64,000 bases of DNA from Halobacteriales archaeon YIM A00013 (GCA_025041195.1 JAKCFM010000003.1:124001-188000); one strand, 5' to 3'; counted from the first letter of the stretch, positions 16,558 through 26,511 are shown. Notes: a model not told the origin generated them from the letters alone. Program-made: numbers and translations.

Positions 16558-18306
16558 GTGATATTCGCCCTTTACGACAATGCTGGTGTTGACATTGACG
16601 TATTCGATCGGTGTTTGTCGGTCCTTGACGACCGTGGACACGATGGAAAAGAAAGTATTGTCGACCGACCAATTGCAGTGGGGTACCAGCATTTCTATAC
16701 CGATACAAGAGAAGAGTGCTGTCGGCAACCCATAAGCGATACTGACACCATCATAGCCTTCGACGGCCGGATCGATAATAGACGAACACTCACTCGGAAA
16801 TTTAGCTATATCAACGACGATCTAGCTGCTGTCGAAATTTTCAAATGTCTGTTTGATTCAGTCGGCGAGCAAGCATTTCAGGAGATTGTTGGTCCGTTCT
16901 TCGCCCTCGCGTATGAAAAGGACACAGAGACGTTGGTATGTGGACGTGATACGATTGGACTCCGGCATATTTTCTATTGCTACACAGGTGAGCGATTCCT
17001 CATTGCCTCATCACCGGATGCGATTCTCAGAGCGATTGAGTCAACGCCAGATAGAGATGCTATCGCTGGCTATCTCTCCGAGAACGGGAAGTACGCTGGC
17101 TACACGTTCCACACCGAAATAGAGGCGCTCGATCGAGGTTCATTCCTCAGATATGATGGAGATACTGCTGAAGAGATCTCATACCACCAGTTCAGGTCAC
17201 AGCGCGAATACTCGCACGCACGCCCAGACCGATTTCGAGAGGCACTTGAGAGCGCTGTCTGCTCTCGAATATCACAATACAGTCGGCCAGGAGTTGCGCT
17301 AAGTGGTGGACGAGATTCGAACACCGTCGCTGCCGTGGTAGTCAACGACTGTGGCGCTACCCCCAGAACGTACTCACACGTTTCTAAAAATGAGTTTGAG
17401 TGCGAGCGCATTGAAACAGAAATGCAAAATATTGGGATTATGGATGAATTGTATTCTTTCGACTCGCACCGAATATGGATCGACGACTATGATTTCGACT
17501 ACGAGCGGTGTCTCGACTCGTACTCTTTTGGGCTTCCTGTCCTCGATCCATACCTGGCGATGCAGATCCAACTCTATGAACGCGCAGCGGAGAATGGCAA
17601 GGTTGTGCTAGATGGATTCGGGGGGAACTGTTTCGACGGAACTGGCTTGTTCTATTATGATTTGCTTCGTACCGGCCAACTCGGCCAGCTTGTCGATCGT
17701 GCCTATCGTGACGATGGAACCACGCTGGCGAATCTCTTCTCAGCCGTGCTCCCATCAATTACATCATTCACACCGAGTCCAGCTCACGAACCGTCGTGGC
17801 TTCAGTTCGATCCACCCAGCTCAGATGTTACGATGGACGTGAAATACCTTGAACAGCAGCTTATGCTGCGATTTCTGTTTAAACGGACGAAAAACCTGAT
17901 GCGCTTTCAGGCACAGCAAGCAGCTCGGAAGAATGGCATTGATCTTCGATTCCCACTGATGGATGAACGCCTCCATCGAGAGGTGCTGAAAATGCCTCCA
18001 GGTAGCCTGCGGAAGAGGGGACAGAGTAAAGGCCTATTCCTAGAAGCAGTGGATGGTCTACTCCCTCCAGAGATTGAATCGTTCGAGATCGGGATGGGTT
18101 TCGACCCGTTCCTCGAAGAAGGGCTAGAGAATTACGGGTATCCCTCTATCGAGAAAGATCTACAATCCCTTCACACAGACCGATTAGGAGTTGTGGACGG
18201 GAATGTCGTACGCTCGAAGGTCCTGAACTTAAGTACTTCACCAAGTCAATTGTGGAAACTGTTCACTATCGAGCGATGGCTTACCAAACATCAGAATGTT
18301 CCATAG
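16558..18306 (+). CDS. Asparagine-synthetase-like protein, possible RiPP cyclase
   Basis: A 582-aa protein starting with GTG. The N-terminal domain has the glutaminase-like fold order of asparagine synthetase B but lacks the catalytic Cys2 (it begins MIFALYDN), so it cannot hydrolyse glutamine in the usual way. The C-terminal ATP-pyrophosphatase domain is intact, with the P-loop LSGGRDSNTVA near residue 249. Loss of Cys2 with retention of the AMP-forming domain is typical of lasso-peptide macrolactam synthetases and other amide-forming relatives. A 42-aa ORF and an S9-family hydrolase follow on the same strand, an arrangement that fits cyclase, precursor and isopeptidase. The transglutaminase-like leader protease (B2) and RRE protein (B1) of lasso clusters are not visible here. 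It could also be an ordinary amidotransferase relative. Confidence 0.7.
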   Translation: MIFALYDNAGVDIDVFDRCLSVLDDRGHDGKESIVDRPIAVGYQHFYTDTREECCRQPISDTDTIIAFDGRIDNRRTLTRKFSYINDDLAAVEIFKCLFDSVGEQAFQEIVGPFFALAYEKDTETLVCGRDTIGLRHIFYCYTGERFLIASSPDAILRAIESTPDRDAIAGYLSENGKYAGYTFHTEIEALDRGSFLRYDGDTAEEISYHQFRSQREYSHARPDRFREALESAVCSRISQYSRPGVALSGGRDSNTVAAVVVNDCGATPRTYSHVSKNEFECERIETEMQNIGIMDELYSFDSHRIWIDDYDFDYERCLDSYSFGLPVLDPYLAMQIQLYERAAENGKVVLDGFGGNCFDGTGLFYYDLLRTGQLGQLVDRAYRDDGTTLANLFSAVLPSITSFTPSPAHEPSWLQFDPPSSDVTMDVKYLEQQLMLRFLFKRTKNLMRFQAQQAARKNGIDLRFPLMDERLHREVLKMPPGSLRKRGQSKGLFLEAVDGLLPPEIESFEIGMGFDPFLEEGLENYGYPSIEKDLQSLHTDRLGVVDGNVVRSKVLNLSTSPSQLWKLFTIERWLTKHQNVP

Positions 18307-18488: not shown

Positions 18489-18576
18489 CGCTCCCTGCTA
18501 CAATCGAAACACAAGAGTAGTACTGTGTGGTAAGTTATATTACGGTCGGGAACTTGATATTTGCTCAGTTATCTAG

Positions 18577-20334
18577 ATGACGATCCCCAATAATCCCATC
18601 GAGACGTTTTTTTCAATCCCCACAGCATACTTTCCGAAGGCTTCACCAGATGGCGAGTGGGTTGCGTGCAATTGGAATACGACTGGACGCTTTGAGCTGC
18701 ACGGCACTCACCTCCCCACTGGTCGGCGTCACCAATTCACGGATGGTGAAATTCCACTGCATCCCGAGAACGTTTCGTACGTATGGGCTGCGGATAGCGA
18801 AGCTGTTCTCTATCGAGGAGCGGAAGAAAACACATCATGGGTGTATCGCTCGCCGGTAGAAGGGGAGAAAGAGCGATTGTTCTCGATTCCAGAAGATGGT
18901 CTGTTGTGGGCTGTGAACCCAGTTTCTGGGCTGATCTACTACCGTGTGGATGATACCACACTCCGCTGGCGAAATCCAACTACCGATGAATATGGCGACT
19001 TCCCCCAGTTTCCTGGGCTCGATACACAGATCGCAGCCACGTGTGCCGTTAGTCCAGACGGGGAATTTGTTGCCTACTCGTCCAATCCACCGCAGACCAA
19101 CACAGCTGAAACCACGTTTGTGAGCGGTCTCACAACCTATATAACACGAGCGGACGGGAGTGATCCTGTCCGTGTAGACGTGCCAGACCACGGTAAAAGA
19201 CTCACCCCTGTACAGTGGCATCCACACGAACACAAACTCCTCGTCGAGCGCGACGACGGGCACTGGCGGGATGGGCGGACCTGCGGGATATACGATATAA
19301 ATGATGAATCGGTTGAATGGATCGCAGACATGGGTGCAGTCGCGTTCTTACATGATGGCGATACGATTCTGTCCGGTGCTCCCCCCCGATCAGCGACTGC
19401 GGTGATCGATACGAAGGGCGATGTAACGGATATACCGTGCGAAGGGCTGTTTTTGGACTGTTCTGGTACTGAGGCAACGATTGGTGGGAACGAGTTCGTG
19501 TTGCAACGAAGCAAGGAAGATCGACCGTATGAAGCTCTCTACCATAATTTGGTGACCGAAGAAACTACTGTACTTTTCGGAGCGGGATATGAAGACCGTG
19601 AGATCGGTCCTGATGAGTTCGTCGAGCCGACGGAGATCCAGTTTCCACTCCCTGATGGAGAAACTGCTGGAGGCCTACTTTACCGACCATCAGAGAGAGA
19701 CGGTGAGACACCAGCGATTGTGTTCTTTTATGGGATGTCAAATACGTGGTCTCGATCATTCCGACCAGAAGTGCAGTTGCTTGTTCACCTAGGCTACACA
19801 GTATTGCTGGCGAATTGTCCCGTCCCCGGATGGACACCCGAAGAACACGATATCTTCAACGCCGCTGGAAGCTGGCTTCGAGATCAAGAGGGTATCGCGT
19901 CCGACTCCGTAGCTGCGTATGGTCACTCGCATGGAGGATACAATGTCTATATGCAGGCGGTTTTGCACCCCAACACGTGGGATGCATTCGTAGCAGACAC
20001 AGGAGTCGTAGATCTTCGACAGATTACACTGGGAAACCTCCGTCGACAGCTCGGTGATCCGGACGAAAATAGAGCAGAGTACGAAGCGATGAGTCCGATA
20101 ACGCATATGGACGGAGAGGTTGGTTCACCACTGCTCATGATCCACGGCGAAGAAGATTCAAACGCAGAGCAACCACGAATCTTCGAGCGAGCACTCCAGA
20201 ACAGGGGATGGTCTAAGGGAGACGAGTATGACTATATCGAGGTACAGGGGATGGGCCATAAACCCAAATCGCGGGTGAAGCAGACCGTGTGCTGGAAAGC
20301 AATTATCGAATTCCTCGATTATCACTTCGCGTAA
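18577..20334 (+). CDS. S9 prolyl-oligopeptidase-family hydrolase
   Basis: A 585-aa protein: an N-terminal beta-propeller-like region with repeated blade motifs (SPDGEWVACN, SPDGEFVAYS) and a C-terminal alpha/beta hydrolase. The nucleophile elbow is GHSHGG (S451), with a likely Asp near 527 (HGEEDSN) and His near 561 (GMGHKP) completing the triad. No signal peptide, so it is cytoplasmic. Family members cleave short peptides; a specialised branch linearises lasso peptides (isopeptidases such as AtxE2, which have the same propeller-hydrolase layout). Its position behind a cyclase-like gene and a 42-aa ORF makes isopeptidase or maturation protease a reasonable hypothesis, while a general dipeptidyl peptidase is the conservative call. 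Confidence 0.75.
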   Translation: MTIPNNPIETFFSIPTAYFPKASPDGEWVACNWNTTGRFELHGTHLPTGRRHQFTDGEIPLHPENVSYVWAADSEAVLYRGAEENTSWVYRSPVEGEKERLFSIPEDGLLWAVNPVSGLIYYRVDDTTLRWRNPTTDEYGDFPQFPGLDTQIAATCAVSPDGEFVAYSSNPPQTNTAETTFVSGLTTYITRADGSDPVRVDVPDHGKRLTPVQWHPHEHKLLVERDDGHWRDGRTCGIYDINDESVEWIADMGAVAFLHDGDTILSGAPPRSATAVIDTKGDVTDIPCEGLFLDCSGTEATIGGNEFVLQRSKEDRPYEALYHNLVTEETTVLFGAGYEDREIGPDEFVEPTEIQFPLPDGETAGGLLYRPSERDGETPAIVFFYGMSNTWSRSFRPEVQLLVHLGYTVLLANCPVPGWTPEEHDIFNAAGSWLRDQEGIASDSVAAYGHSHGGYNVYMQAVLHPNTWDAFVADTGVVDLRQITLGNLRRQLGDPDENRAEYEAMSPITHMDGEVGSPLLMIHGEEDSNAEQPRIFERALQNRGWSKGDEYDYIEVQGMGHKPKSRVKQTVCWKAIIEFLDYHFA

Positions 20335-20344
20335 TTTGCTTCTT

Positions 20345-20650
20345 CACTCAGTAAGTGGTGGCAGCGACTTCTTACCGGTTGAGACCTTGGCTCGTTCGCG
20401 TCGCCACCGATCGTTATCGAACGAAATATCGTAGTTCGCTTCTGCACGTTCGAGGATGCTGCGCTGTTCCGATTGTGGGATCTCGAAGAAGTTTCGACGG
20501 TATAGCCGAACGGTAGCCGTCCGACTCGTTTACCGTTCTCGGTGGTAGTGTCGATTCCTTCTTGACCCGTGAGTGAATCATCTTGCGCTCGGCATCAGCG
20601 AAGACCATCATCATGTGCAGTATCATCTCGATATCCAGTCGTCCTCCCCA
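20345..20650 (-). pseudogene. Serine recombinase C-terminal remnant
   Basis: Reading the minus strand gives HMMMVFADAERKMIHSRVK, then after frame changes GIDTTTENGKRVGRLPFGY and finally IPQSEQRSILERAEANYD. These are typical blocks of the C-terminal half of a haloarchaeal resolvase/invertase. At least two frameshifts are needed to read it through, and the N-terminal catalytic domain is missing. Other fragments of the same kind of recombinase occur at about 25157-25402, 30465-30758 and 36070-36275. Confidence 0.6.
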
Positions 20651-20870
20651 GCGGTGTCGATCGACGTCTCGTCAAGCACGAGGCCACAGTCCTCACAGCT
20701 CGTCTCGACCGTGTTAGTTCGCACCCGTCCACCGCACTCTGGGCAGCTGCTGGTCGTCCCACCCGGTACGTCCTCGTCGAACCACCGCTCGTGAATATCA
20801 CAGGTCGCAATCTGAATCCCCGGAGTTGCGAGGAGCTCAGTTCACCACGAGCCCCTCCCCATCGAGGGGC
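20640..20870 (-). pseudogene. TFIIB-type zinc-ribbon fragment
   Basis: The minus strand encodes SCPECGGRVRTNTVETSCED followed by CGLVLDE and a stop. This is the CPxC…CxxC zinc ribbon plus the start of the B-finger of an archaeal transcription factor B. No cyclin domains follow; the frame stops and runs into the recombinase remnant. Upstream the frame stays open (CDIHERWFDED) without a clear start. It lies downstream of an operon whose TFB-like protein has cyclin folds but no zinc ribbon, which may be coincidence or a trace of rearrangement. Confidence 0.55.
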
Positions 20871-20974
20871 AGAAAAGTCGAACGTGCGGTAACAAACCAG
20901 AACAAGCGGTCAGACTGTCTTGGAGTAGAAAATAGCGGAAGAAGCGATACACTCGCGCTGGAACAGGCTATCGT

Positions 20975-22261
20975 TCAGAGTTTCGAGATCTCCTCATTTT
21001 GATACTCAAGGAACTCCTCGCAGATGCTGTGGTCGTTCGTTAAAAGGAGTTCCTGACCAGAGACAGTCTCATCGGTCGCATGGGTGACTTCGAGTGTTTC
21101 TGGATCGACATGCACGAGTCCGTGATCGAGATCCGCGTGGTGATTTGGACAGAGAACGAGCATGTTCGTCTTCACGTCAGGTCCCTCGTGAGGCCGCCCG
21201 AGCGGCTTGACGTGGTGGACCTCCGCGTAGTGCTCTAGAGGCGCTCTGTGCCTCGTTTCTCCGCAGAGCTGGCAGTGGTACTGATACTGCTCTTTCAGAC
21301 CCTTCGCGAGCTCAGTGTCTCGGACGATCCGCGAAGTTGTCGTCTCTACACGCTCTGCATCCGGCTGTGCCAGGTCCGCCACAGCCTCTGTCTCGTCAGG
21401 GTCGTGAACACCAGTTTCAGCTGCTATGTTAGCATAATCAGTGTCTGCTTCCAGTTCCTCTTCGAGTATCTCCTCCTCATCAGGCACTGGAGGTTCATCA
21501 ATCTGCTCAAGAGTGCCATCCTCAGTGATCAGGTCCTGCCAGCCATCTACCTGGTCCAGCAGTGTCGACTTGGGGTCGTGGAGACATCGGAATCGAATGT
21601 GGCGTTGAATGCTTCCGGCCGAAGCTTCGTAATCTTCGGCGAGAGGTTCGAGCTTCGAAAGCGTAAGATCGCGGGTTTCCCTGTACCTTTCGCGAAACTC
21701 CCTGCACAGATCTTCGGAGATGTGAGCTCGTTTTCCGACGACCCGTGCCGGAACATCTACCTCGTGATTGCACTCTCCGTTGACGTGCCGTAACACGGTC
21801 TGGTACGTCCAGGGGACGCTTTGGGAAATTTCAAGGAGATCCGCATTGTCCTCTTCGTTATACGACCTCCTCAGGGATGTACAGTCCTGCTCTCCAACAG
21901 GCATCCGCTGGAGGATCTCGCGTTTTTCAACAACAATATCGTCTTCCTCGTGGGTACACTCCCCCGAAAGGTGCCGGACTGTTGTCTTCCAAGTGTGACC
22001 CAGTTCTTCTGAAATGTCGTTGACGTCTTCGCCGGAAGCGTACTTCGTCCGGATTTCACGGCACTCAGATTCCGGGAGCCCAACTGGAGGCGGGCTCAGT
22101 GCTTCCAGTTCGACCTCATGGCCACACTCTCCGTAGATGTGGTACCGAATGGTTCCGACGCTGAGGTCGTATTCCTCGGCAAGTTCGGTCGACCCATCAC
22201 CATGCTCTGTGCGGTTTCTAAGAGTCCTGCACAGCAACCCCGAAACTCTCGTCGATGCCAT
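20975..22261 (-). CDS. HNH endonuclease with four HTH-like repeats
   Basis: A 428-aa protein. The C-terminal HNH domain (about residues 325-380) shows two CxxC pairs or their equivalents (CQLCGE and LCPNHH) and the core HHVKPLG and NHHADLDHG, so it should cut DNA with a metal bound. The N-terminal ~240 residues hold four repeats of about 60 aa, each helix-turn-helix-like and ending in a similar block (HIYGECGHE, HLSGECTHE, HVNGECNHE, HIRFRCLHD), with His/Cys that could bind zinc. An acidic linker (EEEILEEELEAD) joins the two parts. The start ATG overlaps the TFB-like stop (TGATG). It is the last gene of a PLD/TFB-like/HNH operon. Confidence 0.8.
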   Translation of the reverse strand: MASTRVSGLLCRTLRNRTEHGDGSTELAEEYDLSVGTIRYHIYGECGHEVELEALSPPPVGLPESECREIRTKYASGEDVNDISEELGHTWKTTVRHLSGECTHEEDDIVVEKREILQRMPVGEQDCTSLRRSYNEEDNADLLEISQSVPWTYQTVLRHVNGECNHEVDVPARVVGKRAHISEDLCREFRERYRETRDLTLSKLEPLAEDYEASAGSIQRHIRFRCLHDPKSTLLDQVDGWQDLITEDGTLEQIDEPPVPDEEEILEEELEADTDYANIAAETGVHDPDETEAVADLAQPDAERVETTTSRIVRDTELAKGLKEQYQYHCQLCGETRHRAPLEHYAEVHHVKPLGRPHEGPDVKTNMLVLCPNHHADLDHGLVHVDPETLEVTHATDETVSGQELLLTNDHSICEEFLEYQNEEISKL

Positions 22262-23124
22262 CAAATAATCTCCGTGTACTTGGCCACGGTCTGTGGACTA
22301 ATTCCGGTGATTTCAGCGAGGTGGGATTGCTCAAGATGTATGCCGTGTTCCTCACCCGTTACAAGATACGCTGCTGAGGCAATGCCGGCCTTGCTCTGGC
22401 CGCGAGTAATTTCTGTATCGTCGATATTACGCGCTCGTTCTCTTGCCTCCTCGCAAACGTCGTCCGGAAAGTCCGTGGAATCCTCGATCACTTGAAATGC
22501 TATATCGAAGTCCCTCGAAGTGAGATCAACCGGTTCGATGTCTGGCGCGTGCTGCATGATCTCAGGGTAAATCTTCCGGATGGTAACCGTCGTGGTATCA
22601 GCGACGTTCGAGAGTTCGGCCTGGGTGTAGCCAAGGTCACCAAGTTCGGACTGTGCGTAGAGTACAGCAGCGGCGAATCCGGACGGAGAACGACCGCTAT
22701 GTAGATTTACACCCTTCGCGATTTTACAGAGGCTTTCAGCGCGTTCGATCGCGTCATACTCCCAGTTCAGCTCGTTCCCGAATTCCTCAATGAAGTCAAT
22801 GGGATCTTCGGGCTCTACCTGCATTCCGATGGCTTCGGAGAGGTTGCTTGACTCGTGATATATATTCTTGGCCTCGCGACGACTGACGTCTGCAACGTCG
22901 TCGATCGTTACGGGTTCGTCGCGAAGTCGAGCAGCAAAGTAGAGACAAGTCGCAGTCGCGCGATCGATCGTACTGGGCCGATATTCGCTCTTGACCGCTT
23001 GAACGTACAGTTGGAGTCCAAACTCTATCACGTCGTCTGCCAGCGAAAGTTCCTCGCCCATCCGCTCGATTTCGCTCGCGACGTACAGGAGATTTGCCTC
23101 CGTTGCATCCCGCATCGATGTCAT
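22261..23124 (-). CDS. TFB-like cyclin-fold protein lacking zinc ribbon
   Basis: A 287-aa protein beginning directly with the first cyclin-like repeat (SEIERMGEELSLADDVIEFG) and continuing through a second (WEYDAIERAESLCKIAKG) and apparently a partial third HTH-like unit near the C-terminus (LAEITGISPQTVAKYTEII). Archaeal TFB recruits RNA polymerase through an N-terminal zinc ribbon and B-finger, which are absent here. It may bind TBP-DNA or a BRE-like sequence without recruiting polymerase, acting as a repressor, a specificity factor or a DNA-targeting subunit for the nucleases encoded on either side. It is coupled to the HNH gene by TGATG and follows the PLD gene after 62 bp. Confidence 0.75.
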   Translation of the reverse strand: MTSMRDATEANLLYVASEIERMGEELSLADDVIEFGLQLYVQAVKSEYRPSTIDRATATCLYFAARLRDEPVTIDDVADVSRREAKNIYHESSNLSEAIGMQVEPEDPIDFIEEFGNELNWEYDAIERAESLCKIAKGVNLHSGRSPSGFAAAVLYAQSELGDLGYTQAELSNVADTTTVTIRKIYPEIMQHAPDIEPVDLTSRDFDIAFQVIEDSTDFPDDVCEEARERARNIDDTEITRGQSKAGIASAAYLVTGEEHGIHLEQSHLAEITGISPQTVAKYTEII

Positions 23125-23186
23125 TTCAATACCACCGAATCGAGCAACTCTAAAAAATATACTGCACCCGTGATCGCGAAACTGGG

Positions 23187-24290
23187 TCAGTCGCTTCGAG
23201 CGGAAAACGCCCTATCTAAGACATTCTCGCGGTATTGCTCGTCGACAGCGACTCTGTACGCTGCTGGTTCGTGGTAGTGACGATATTCAGATCGTTCACC
23301 CCGCTGGGCTTCATTACGAACGATCTCTCGCCAGTCCGCTTTGATATCCTTGGAGATAAATTCAGCAGGATCACCTGGAAACTTGAACCAGTACGGATCC
23401 TCGTCCGAGTTCGTCGAGAAGGGGCCGAAGTCGCTGACGAACTTCTCGAGTTCGTCCAGTGCCTTGCTGTCGTTCGGGAGGATTATCCCGATTTGCTCCT
23501 GCTGGGGGAATGCTGCAAGTACGTATCTGTGATTCACATTAACGGGCAGTCGTGGCGACGAAGCAGGAACTGTCGTCGCGATTCGCTTGTCCGACTCGTC
23601 GAGTCCGGTGCACTCGATCACTTCCGCGACCCAGTCGAAGTAGGCCTCCATCCAATCTCTGTTCGGGGCCTGACTAACGGTATCCACGAGTCGGCTGTGA
23701 GCGGTCTCGTCGACCTCAATCGTAGACTCACCGAGTCGTTGGAGTGACGCTTCGATTGACGGTCCGGTATCAGGCAACACTGGCCTCGATCGCTCCTCGG
23801 GTTCGAGCCATTCGGTTTCGGTTAGATAGGCGTCCAGGTCATCGAAATCGGGTGCTCTAGTGCGTCTCCAAAGGTCCTCGAACCACGTAGCAAGTTCGTC
23901 CACCTCGCCAGTATCCTCGAACAGCACAGCCATCTCAGGGTTCCTCACGAGACCGCTGTATGTGACGTTTGCCGAACCAACCAGCCCAGTGCCGTTTCCG
24001 ACGAGGACCTTCGCGTGCAGGCCCCGACAGTCGTGGATCGATCCGCTGTTCGACCGTACGAACTCCAGCAACTCTTTGCGTTCTCCCGAGTGAGAGCGAA
24101 ACCACTCCTGGACGTCGGTTACGAGGCGCCACGTTTGGGTACGGTCGGTGATGGATTGAAGAACGTCGAGTCCCAGATACGGACACGCGATGTCGAGTGT
24201 GGCGTCGTCCGAAAGTCTGACGAGCGCGTCTTCGAACGGGGACTTTGGAGTTTTGTCGTCGAAATCGTGGTAGATCAGTTCGATACCCAT
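23187..24290 (-). CDS. PLD-family nuclease-like protein
   Basis: About 367 aa using the start MGIELIYHDFDD at 24290; a Met 36 codons upstream gives a poorly conserved-looking extension. It has one HxK motif in LHAKVLVGNGTG (near residue 92) followed by GSANVTYSG, the layout of phospholipase-D-superfamily nucleases that act as dimers. The C-terminal ~200 residues are uncharacterised (WMEAYFDWVAEVIECTG, YWFKFPGDPAEF). It is the first gene of the minus-strand operon with the TFB-like and HNH proteins. A single-HKD PLD protein beside an HNH nuclease suggests DNA restriction; substrate unknown. Confidence 0.75.
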   Translation of the reverse strand: MGIELIYHDFDDKTPKSPFEDALVRLSDDATLDIACPYLGLDVLQSITDRTQTWRLVTDVQEWFRSHSGERKELLEFVRSNSGSIHDCRGLHAKVLVGNGTGLVGSANVTYSGLVRNPEMAVLFEDTGEVDELATWFEDLWRRTRAPDFDDLDAYLTETEWLEPEERSRPVLPDTGPSIEASLQRLGESTIEVDETAHSRLVDTVSQAPNRDWMEAYFDWVAEVIECTGLDESDKRIATTVPASSPRLPVNVNHRYVLAAFPQQEQIGIILPNDSKALDELEKFVSDFGPFSTNSDEDPYWFKFPGDPAEFISKDIKADWREIVRNEAQRGERSEYRHYHEPAAYRVAVDEQYRENVLDRAFSARSD

Positions 24291-24427
24291 TGACCGTCCC
24301 GAGGAAATGGATCGCTTCCTATAGAACCCACGTGTCTCATTCAACTCCGAACGAGAGAAACGCGGACAGCTGTCAAACATCGTTATTTCCAGGCTCACCC
24401 AAGCTATATCCCGCCATCAGGACAACG

Positions 24428-24943
24428 TCACGCATCGACAGTGTAGATCTCGAACGGGATATCTAGGTCGTAGGTCACGTCGGTCTCCGATTCGATGATC
24501 TGCCACAGATACTCCACATGACCAGTGCTCGGGACCGGCAGCCGAGCTTCAACGAGTAGCGGATCTCCGTGCTCAACAACAGGATCGCCCAACTTAAAGA
24601 CCGCCTGACGAACCACTTCGCCGTTGACGGAAAGCCAAAACCCGAAAATATCCGTAATGCTCGAGAATATCACCCCCAGTACAGTCGTGTTCATCAGAAA
24701 CTCGGAACCAACTTTGGTCACGATCATGTCCGGATCCAGGGCGAAGTGCTGATTGGGATCCCACATCTGACACCACGTGCCCGTCTTGGCGAGATAGAGC
24801 CGACCTCCCGGGTGATGACTCGTCGCCTGATCAGCAAACACGGAGCAGCCGGTCGGCTCGTCGGCGACGATGTCCGGCAGCAAGCTGACGACCTCATCGA
24901 CCGATCGGTTCTTGATGAAAAGCGCTGAGGTGTTCCAACCCAT
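24428..24943 (-). CDS. Hypothetical protein
   Basis: A 171-aa protein (begins MGWNTSALFIKNRSVDEVV), predicted soluble, with a mixed alpha/beta composition and no catalytic motif that I recognise. It lies 137 bp upstream of the PLD gene start on the same strand, so it could be a separate transcription unit or a loosely linked gene. Similar short soluble proteins beginning MGWNTSAL are, as far as I recall, more common in actinobacteria, but this is not checked. Function unknown. Confidence 0.6.
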   Translation of the reverse strand: MGWNTSALFIKNRSVDEVVSLLPDIVADEPTGCSVFADQATSHHPGGRLYLAKTGTWCQMWDPNQHFALDPDMIVTKVGSEFLMNTTVLGVIFSSITDIFGFWLSVNGEVVRQAVFKLGDPVVEHGDPLLVEARLPVPSTGHVEYLWQIIESETDVTYDLDIPFEIYTVDA

Positions 24944-24974
24944 TGTCTAAGAGAATATCACTACTTCAGAACTT

Positions 24975-25175
24975 GTAATAACTGTTCTCGATCGCTCCAG
25001 TGCCTTGAACAACACCAAGAGATGCATACCACCCACTTCTGTTGTATAGGGCTAAGAGAATCCAGGAGTCGGCCTTGCCGATGTACTCGGTGACGACGGT
25101 TCCCTTCTTGTTCCAATACGCTCAATATTTGTACGGGCCGTGTTTCTCGCCGCCATTCAAACAGTGACACGTGTC
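24975..25175 (-). pseudogene. Relic with in-frame stop
   Basis: The minus strand reads HCLNGGEKHGPYKY, a stop, then AYWNKKGTVVTEYIGKADSW. This looks like the GxxHGPYxYxYW-type module found in small haloarchaeal and bacterial proteins of mobile elements (DUF6788-like). The stop within the conserved block and the absence of a complete domain mark it as decayed. It abuts the recombinase remnant on the same strand. Confidence 0.35.
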
Positions 25176-25830: not shown

Positions 25831-26511
25831 ATGGTGGATAGAACCATACTTCCAGGCGTCAACTCTTCGCAAAGTAAGATAAAGCAGGCACTAATTATGC
25901 TTGTATACTGTATTGGAATTTTCCTACTCTCTCCATTTCTGATAGCAGCTTTGCTCATAGGACTTCTTATTTCTCCATTGATAGTACCATTCGTCATCGG
26001 ATTCAATATCCGTGGAGCGCACGATCGATTGAAGGGAGTCAAAGGCATTGATGATCGTCGACTCCGATCAGCACTGATCGGTGGAGGGTATGCGTTATTG
26101 GTAATGGTCATTACGTTAGTGGCATTGGGAGCAGTACCTCAAGAAGAAGATCCACAAGATGGGTCATACACTGCTCCGAATACAGACACGCCAACGAATG
26201 CTCAAACAGAGACATCAACTCCAACACCTGAGACAGATACTCAAACAGAGACATCAACTCCAACACCTGAGACAGATACTCAAACAGAGACATCAACTCC
26301 AACGCCTGAACCAGATACCCCAACAGAGACACCAACTCCAACGCCTACACCTGATGAAGATACACCTCGTGATCCAGATGGTGATCTTGACTGCGATGAT
26401 TTCGATACACACCAAGAAGCACAAGAGTTCTTTGAACGGAATAATCCATCTGAAGACCCCCATGGACTTGATGGTGACAATGACGGAGAGGCCTGCGAAT
26501 CGCTTCCCTGA
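25831..26511 (+). CDS. Membrane-anchored Excalibur-domain protein
   Basis: A 226-aa protein. Two hydrophobic segments (about residues 18-55 and 85-102) form the membrane anchor. A long Thr/Pro-rich linker follows, encoded by a 39-bp tandem repeat, then a C-terminal Excalibur calcium-binding domain ([17 protein letters not shown], then [14 protein letters not shown]) with the DxDxDGxxCE loop and paired cysteines. Excalibur domains are extracellular and often linked to DNA-entry or cell-surface nucleases. The protein is probably displayed on the outer face of the membrane. No operon partner is evident on the same strand. Confidence 0.75.
26203..26341 (+). repeat. 39-bp tandem repeat in Thr/Pro linker
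   Basis: Three copies of a 39-bp unit start at 26203, 26242 and 26281, the first two identical and the third nearly so, followed by a diverged fourth copy. Each encodes a 13-residue [17 protein letters not shown] unit in the linker of the Excalibur protein. Copy number could vary by slippage. Confidence 0.85.

Follow-up and report, generated by a model that had tools for sequence, protein, structure and literature searches.

TFBL, a TFB-like gene, and the gene of an HNH nuclease form a two-gene unit in haloarchaea. In a sample of 391 genomes of the class Halobacteria, a TFBL profile found its matches in the identical nine genomes in which a profile of the N-terminal half of the HNH protein gave strong matches, and the two genes were adjacent every time. 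This pairing (9/9 in both directions) is far beyond chance. We tentatively interpret the unit, at a little below an even chance, as a horizontally moving nuclease module in which TFBL and the zinc-HTH HNH protein would act jointly on DNA, likely in defence.

Organization of the TFBL-HNH locus

The locus is located in a window of 64,000 nucleotides, which denotes here the whole stretch of DNA that was analysed, on a 256-kb contig of a 3.7-Mb genome (G000). ORF calling together with Pfam confirmed the three genes that the first-pass annotation had placed there, encoding a PLD-type, a TFB-like and an HNH protein (Table 1). TFBL precedes HNH and is the first gene of the pair. The stop codon of TFBL overlaps the HNH start codon in the sequence TTGATG, and the two genes, as had been proposed, are translationally coupled judging by this TGATG arrangement. 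Since a gap of 62 nt separates the PLD gene from TFBL and contains a TATA-like box about 30 nt before the TFBL start, TFBL-HNH probably has a promoter of its own. A BRE/TATA-like sequence is also found upstream of TFBL in the relatives, canonical-looking in several loci.

Table 1. Positions of the features at the TFBL-HNH locus, and of a second HNH-HTH family at related loci (window positions unless a locus is named)
Feature	Position	Strand	Remarks
HNH nuclease gene	20975..22261	-	428 aa, ATG at 22261; Pfam HNH_2/HNH
TagI/McrA-type HNH catalytic domain (residues ~300-428)	20978..21364	-	match to 6GHS
Zn-HTH repeat 4 (residues 186-228)	21578..21706	-	
Zn-HTH repeat 3 (residues 127-166)	21764..21883	-	
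Zn-HTH repeat 2 (residues 67-104)	21950..22063	-	
Zn-HTH repeat 1 (residues 11-48)	22118..22231	-	C-x3-R...H-x4-C-x-H
TFBL (TFB-like gene)	22261..23124	-	287 aa; Pfam TFIIB 2.1e-28, three stretches; zinc-ribbon-less
TFBL cyclin repeat 3 (residues ~205-287)	22264..22512	-	duplicated from repeat 2 and diverged
TFBL cyclin repeat 2 (residues ~104-192)	22549..22815	-	with BRE-reading helix
V180-T-I-R183	22576..22587	-	human TFIIB V283/R286 positions; invariant in 9/9 TFBL
TFBL cyclin repeat 1 (residues ~4-99)	22828..23115	-	human TFIIB G153-R154 loop lost
TATA-like box, TATATTTTTTA	23151..23161	-	candidate promoter of the pair
PLD-type protein	23187..24290	-	ATG, 367 aa; Pfam PLDc_2; neighbour, judged outside the unit
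Second HNH-HTH family, L041	4188-5249		
Second HNH-HTH family, L043	4806-5981		
Second HNH-HTH family, L046	6515-7504		
Second HNH-HTH family, L050	3845-4879		

Elsewhere in the window we noticed an asparagine-synthetase-like protein (16558-18306) followed by a prolyl-oligopeptidase of family S9 (18577-20334), a combination that recalls clusters for peptide natural products; C2, another contig of the same genome, carries the peptidase a second time. On the other side lies a Thr/Pro-repeat membrane protein with an Excalibur calcium-binding domain (25831-26508).

The neighbouring PLD gene is judged to lie outside the unit

The first-pass annotation had described the PLD gene as a member of one operon with TFBL and HNH. 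This part of the claim was not upheld, given the 62-nt gap, the TATA-like box before TFBL and the absence of PLD from the other pairs: elsewhere the TFBL-HNH pair is strictly conserved and PLD drops out of the triad, whose lack of conservation the first-pass annotation had named as a ground for refutation. A three-gene system, in which PLD nuclease, TFBL and HNH work together, would account for the adjacency and common orientation of the genes in the window. It would also agree with contig C2, which carries a second, intact copy of the PLD gene and of a 171-aa gene (94% identical at the amino acid level), the PLD copy adjoining a TFBL fragment that bears a stop codon. However, no PLD gene was found beside the other TFBL-HNH pairs, no TFBL was found beside PLD homologues in the four other genomes whose neighbourhoods were inspected, and on C2 it is TFBL that has decayed while PLD is intact. 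The neighbourhood comparison thus largely refutes a three-gene system, which we consider extremely improbable.

The possibility that C2 represents an empty site was rejected, as the TFBL remnant marks a decayed copy. Segments of the window (18553-25132) recur on C2 in permuted order (L091, 4384-8450), as TFBL remnant, PLD, 171-aa gene and then peptidase. Two segments are joined there end to start, overlapping by ~12 nt, which is suggestive of a mobile segment that has been circularised or rearranged. The PLD protein itself resembles DrmC and DpdK, the PLD proteins of DISARM and Dpd; unlike in those systems, PLD lies outside the pair, and none of the neighbours examined was a DISARM or Dpd core gene.

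The pair is rare, conserved and spread apart from its flanks

Searching the 391 genomes with the HNH protein yielded full-length homologues in six genomes other than G000, and in all six loci TFBL is located directly upstream. A scan of genome contigs added Halarchaeum acidiphilum alone, which likewise has the pair, the HNH gene of the draft being frameshifted. The pair is rare (~2% of genomes) and within one family it was found in only two of 125 genomes, while close copies occur in different families (88% at the amino acid level between members of two families). Horizontal transfer would best explain this patchy distribution combined with close copies in different families. Relatives of TFBL and of the zinc-HTH domain were absent from the viral contigs and the phage collection searched, and a virus origin of the pair was therefore rejected.

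DNA similarity between loci, including those from different families, begins ~0-42 nt before TFBL and stops at the end of HNH or ~20 nt beyond. Alignments of L046 with L050, L041 with L045 and L043 with L044 comprise the pair alone, the flanks being unrelated. Several loci have neighbours, recognised defence genes among them, that would fit a defence-island setting: a CARF-PIN protein and a KAP NTPase at L042, an AspBHI-type restriction enzyme at L045, a PbeC-like ATPase at L050 and an HSDR_N protein at L041.

In addition, a second, unrelated HNH-HTH family occurs within ~5 kb of the pair in 4/8 loci (Table 1), although only about a fifth of the sampled genomes have full-length copies of it. 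We also noticed tyrosine recombinase genes next to the pair in L043 (11316-11939) and L046 (11026-11640), on different sides of it; their products are 93% alike at the amino acid level and come from genomes of two families.

A selfish nuclease module of the homing or transposon type, spreading by its own cutting, could be expected to form such a compact two-gene unit and to appear in distant families with close sequence, and the recombinase genes adjoining two of the pairs would suit it. Yet closely related copies have unrelated flanks, unlike the outcome of allelic homing, which was rejected on the differing flanks of the three locus pairs above. Moreover, neither terminal repeats nor a shared insertion site were seen at the pair loci, and the integrases are confined to two loci and differ in relative position, so that we regard a selfish module as improbable. 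A comparison of empty sites among genus relatives of G007 did not find a syntenic site.

The ratios of dN/dS are 0.04-0.19 per domain for all domains of both genes, although for some pairs synonymous sites approach saturation; by this measure, purifying selection on the two genes is strong. Some copies are decaying. Of the nine genomes, G079 has neither gene intact, and G367 has lost the HNH domain but kept TFBL and the N-terminal repeats; a further decaying copy is the remnant on C2.

The HNH protein combines a TagI-like catalytic domain with four C-H-C-H repeats

The C-terminal 130 residues of the HNH protein match the HNH domain of TagI (PDB 6GHS; E 1.6e-26). Residues H350, N366, H375 and D379 are invariant in the full-length proteins (7/7), with a spacing identical to that of H229, N245, H254 and D258 of TagI. 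In TagI, the HNH histidines, Asn245, His254 and an aspartate serve structure and metal binding, and the HNH domains dimerise (PMC6212794).

The N-terminal part, whose repeats were absent from the first-pass annotation, carries four C-H-C-H units, all of them present in 8/8 intact repeat proteins; shuffled sequences gave ~0.001 per shuffle. An AF2 model of the protein, poor outside the repeats and for that reason left aside for the nuclease domain, shows three helices per unit, and zinc-stabilised HTH units would therefore be the natural reading of the repeats. The fold matches of the model all had Z < 7, a level that means no more than 'HTH-like'. As far as our searches show, the four-repeat array appears to be an undescribed DNA-binding architecture. 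In L112 (frame -, 1462-2118), a single C-H-C-H zinc-HTH unit adjoins an HNH domain that is restriction-type but differs from the one described here, and further small haloarchaeal proteins (L113, L114, L115 and L121) also carry single units.

The same HNH domain is found on other N-termini in many haloarchaeal proteins, which look SRA- or EVE-like by reading of their sequences, and in a Janthinobacterium match it is fused to an annotated YDG/SRA domain. Pfam gave no match to an SRA/PUA-type modified-base sensor in the HNH protein of the pair.

We considered whether TFBL and the zinc-HTH protein form a gene-regulatory pair that controls transcription, with an incidental HNH domain. Both proteins look DNA-binding, and the version without the HNH domain in G367 would suit such a pair. 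On the other hand, the catalytic residues are invariant in every full-length protein and dN/dS of the HNH domain is about 0.05-0.12, and a regulatory pair is in our judgement quite improbable. The G367 version, in keeping TFBL together with the repeats, would link TFBL to the DNA-binding part of its partner.

TFBL is a distinct, three-repeat TFB derivative without a zinc ribbon

TFBL matches the TFB core of P. woesei (1D3U; E 3e-36). The first-pass annotation had described it as consisting of cyclin folds only; the lack of a zinc ribbon is borne out by Pfam. The number of repeats is three, not two, all three Pfam TFIIB repeats scoring above the cut-off. Repeat 3 aligns with repeat 2 in hhalign with a probability of 96.4% (E 1e-9). 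The AF2 model (pLDDT 84) consists of fifteen helices arranged as 3 x 5, and its residues 2-198 align with 1D3U_B with Z 19.7.

In TFB, recruitment of RNA polymerase is the task of the zinc ribbon and recognition of the BRE that of the second cyclin fold (PMC7289017). A CxxC...CxxC ribbon within the first 80 residues is present in 22/23 other TFBs compared and in 0/9 TFBL, and by this sequence comparison RNA polymerase recruitment would be gone. Human TFIIB V283 and R286, which contact the upstream BRE, correspond to V in 9/9 TFBL vs 12/23 host-type TFBs and to R in 9/9 vs 17/23, and upstream DNA reading seems preserved. G153 and R154, the downstream-BRE loop of human TFIIB, are both found in 23/23 ordinary haloarchaeal TFBs; in TFBL, G is found in 0/9 and R is deleted in 9/9. 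The equivalent of R169, the TBP-contact arginine, is kept in 4/9 TFBL and that of R175 is lost in 9/9. Because G153/R154 and R175 are lost throughout and R169 in 5/9, docking of TFBL on TBP-TATA may be weakened.

In a tree of the nine TFBLs, 23 haloarchaeal TFBs, P. woesei TFB and human TFIIB, the TFBLs form one monophyletic clade outside all others (support 99/100). Identity with an ordinary chromosomal TFB, which the first-pass annotation had named as a ground for refutation, was rejected on the separate clade and the absent zinc ribbon. G000, whose genus appears to be Halocatena, has ~19 TFB-family genes, several of them on the contig that bears the window. In common with the archaeal TFB/TFIIB core (1D3U, 1AIS), TFBL has two cyclin repeats, a BRE-reading HTH and the BRE contact positions; it differs in lacking the zinc ribbon, reader or linker and the downstream-BRE loop, and in having a third cyclin repeat, a clade of its own and a nuclease partner in all cases.

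Relation to known systems

The C-terminal HNH domain is shared with TagI (SRA-HNH, PDB 6GHS; PMC6212794) and with the haloarchaeal PUA-wH-HNH and wH-HNH enzymes (PMC11037411, PMC10101028), the likeness extending to the catalytic residues, their spacing and a modular N-terminal DNA reader. In contrast to those enzymes, the HNH protein has four C-H-C-H zinc-HTH repeats with no SRA, PUA or EVE sensor found, and an obligatory TFB-derived partner gene. The type IV enzymes EcoKMcrA and ScoMcrA (6GHC, 5ZMM) likewise have an McrA-type HNH (E 2e-6 and 0.02), but they use other reader domains and are single-gene systems. Judged by its catalytic domain, the nuclease falls among the McrA/TagI-type modular enzymes, but their kind of sensor was not found in it. 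PADLOC 2.0.0 left TFBL unmatched and gave weak matches for the HNH protein, to the HNH domain only. In line with the first-pass annotation, which knew of no such system, we found no description of a TFB/HNH combination in PADLOC, NCBIfam or the literature searched; absence there is not proof, and the pair is probably previously undescribed.

A possible mode of action

In the module that we tentatively favour, the HNH protein would be a restriction-type nuclease with a TagI-like domain, which in known relatives acts as a dimer making double-strand breaks, and the four tandem zinc-HTH repeats would aim it in place of a modified-base sensor. TFBL, which keeps the BRE-reading second cyclin repeat and its duplicate, the third, and has lost the zinc ribbon and linker for RNA polymerase, would mark a promoter-like site, that is a BRE, perhaps bound by TBP. 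The nuclease would bind beside the marked site, presumably in a physical complex with TFBL, and then cut. The long composite site read by both proteins would spare the host, and the likely purpose would be defence against foreign genetic elements.

In favour of the joint module are the strict pairing, the confinement of similarity between loci to the pair, the purifying selection, the conserved catalytic and BRE positions, the repeat array and the defence genes beside several loci. The BRE residues conserved in 9/9 TFBL, the absent zinc ribbon and the intact catalytic site lend some support to cutting aimed by TFB and BRE. A further-reaching form of this proposal, a transcription-factor-guided defence in which a polymerase-less TFB recognises promoter architecture on incoming DNA (the BRE, perhaps with TBP) and the zinc-HTH HNH nuclease cuts foreign promoters, is in our estimate on the unlikely side. 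Several points speak against the joint module: BREs are also present in the promoters of the host itself, neither an immunity gene nor a methyltransferase was seen with the pair, docking on TBP-TATA may be weakened, the AF2 model of the HNH protein is poor outside the repeats, the pair is rare and some copies are decaying.

In the main and serious rival, the HNH protein would be a stand-alone restriction nuclease, led to its target by its four zinc-HTH repeats and no partner, and TFBL would serve as its dedicated repressor or as an antitoxin-like controller. TFBL would occupy the BRE/TATA of the module's promoter without recruiting RNA polymerase, by analogy with the C protein of R-M systems. 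We consider this unlikely. In its favour, the regulator comes first in the gene order with a start/stop overlap, a competitive repressor would be expected to resemble a TFB core stripped of its zinc ribbon, and the BRE/TATA upstream of the pair is canonical-looking in several loci. Such a role, however, does not need a third cyclin repeat, TFBL persists in G367 despite loss of the nuclease domain, and homologous core-promoter DNA reaches only ~10-40 nt upstream of TFBL. The G367 version and the third cyclin repeat favour, though not decisively, a joint role of the two proteins in DNA reading.

General transcription factors are viewed as promoter machinery. TFBL appears to be a TFB cut loose from RNA polymerase, and in the sample searched it is tied to a restriction-type nuclease without exception. 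Should TFBL target the cut, the cell would be able to direct a nuclease to promoters, and the cyclin/TFIIB fold would have gained a new use. Should TFBL act as a repressor, the pair would show a TFB core that has become the dominant-negative regulator of a nuclease.
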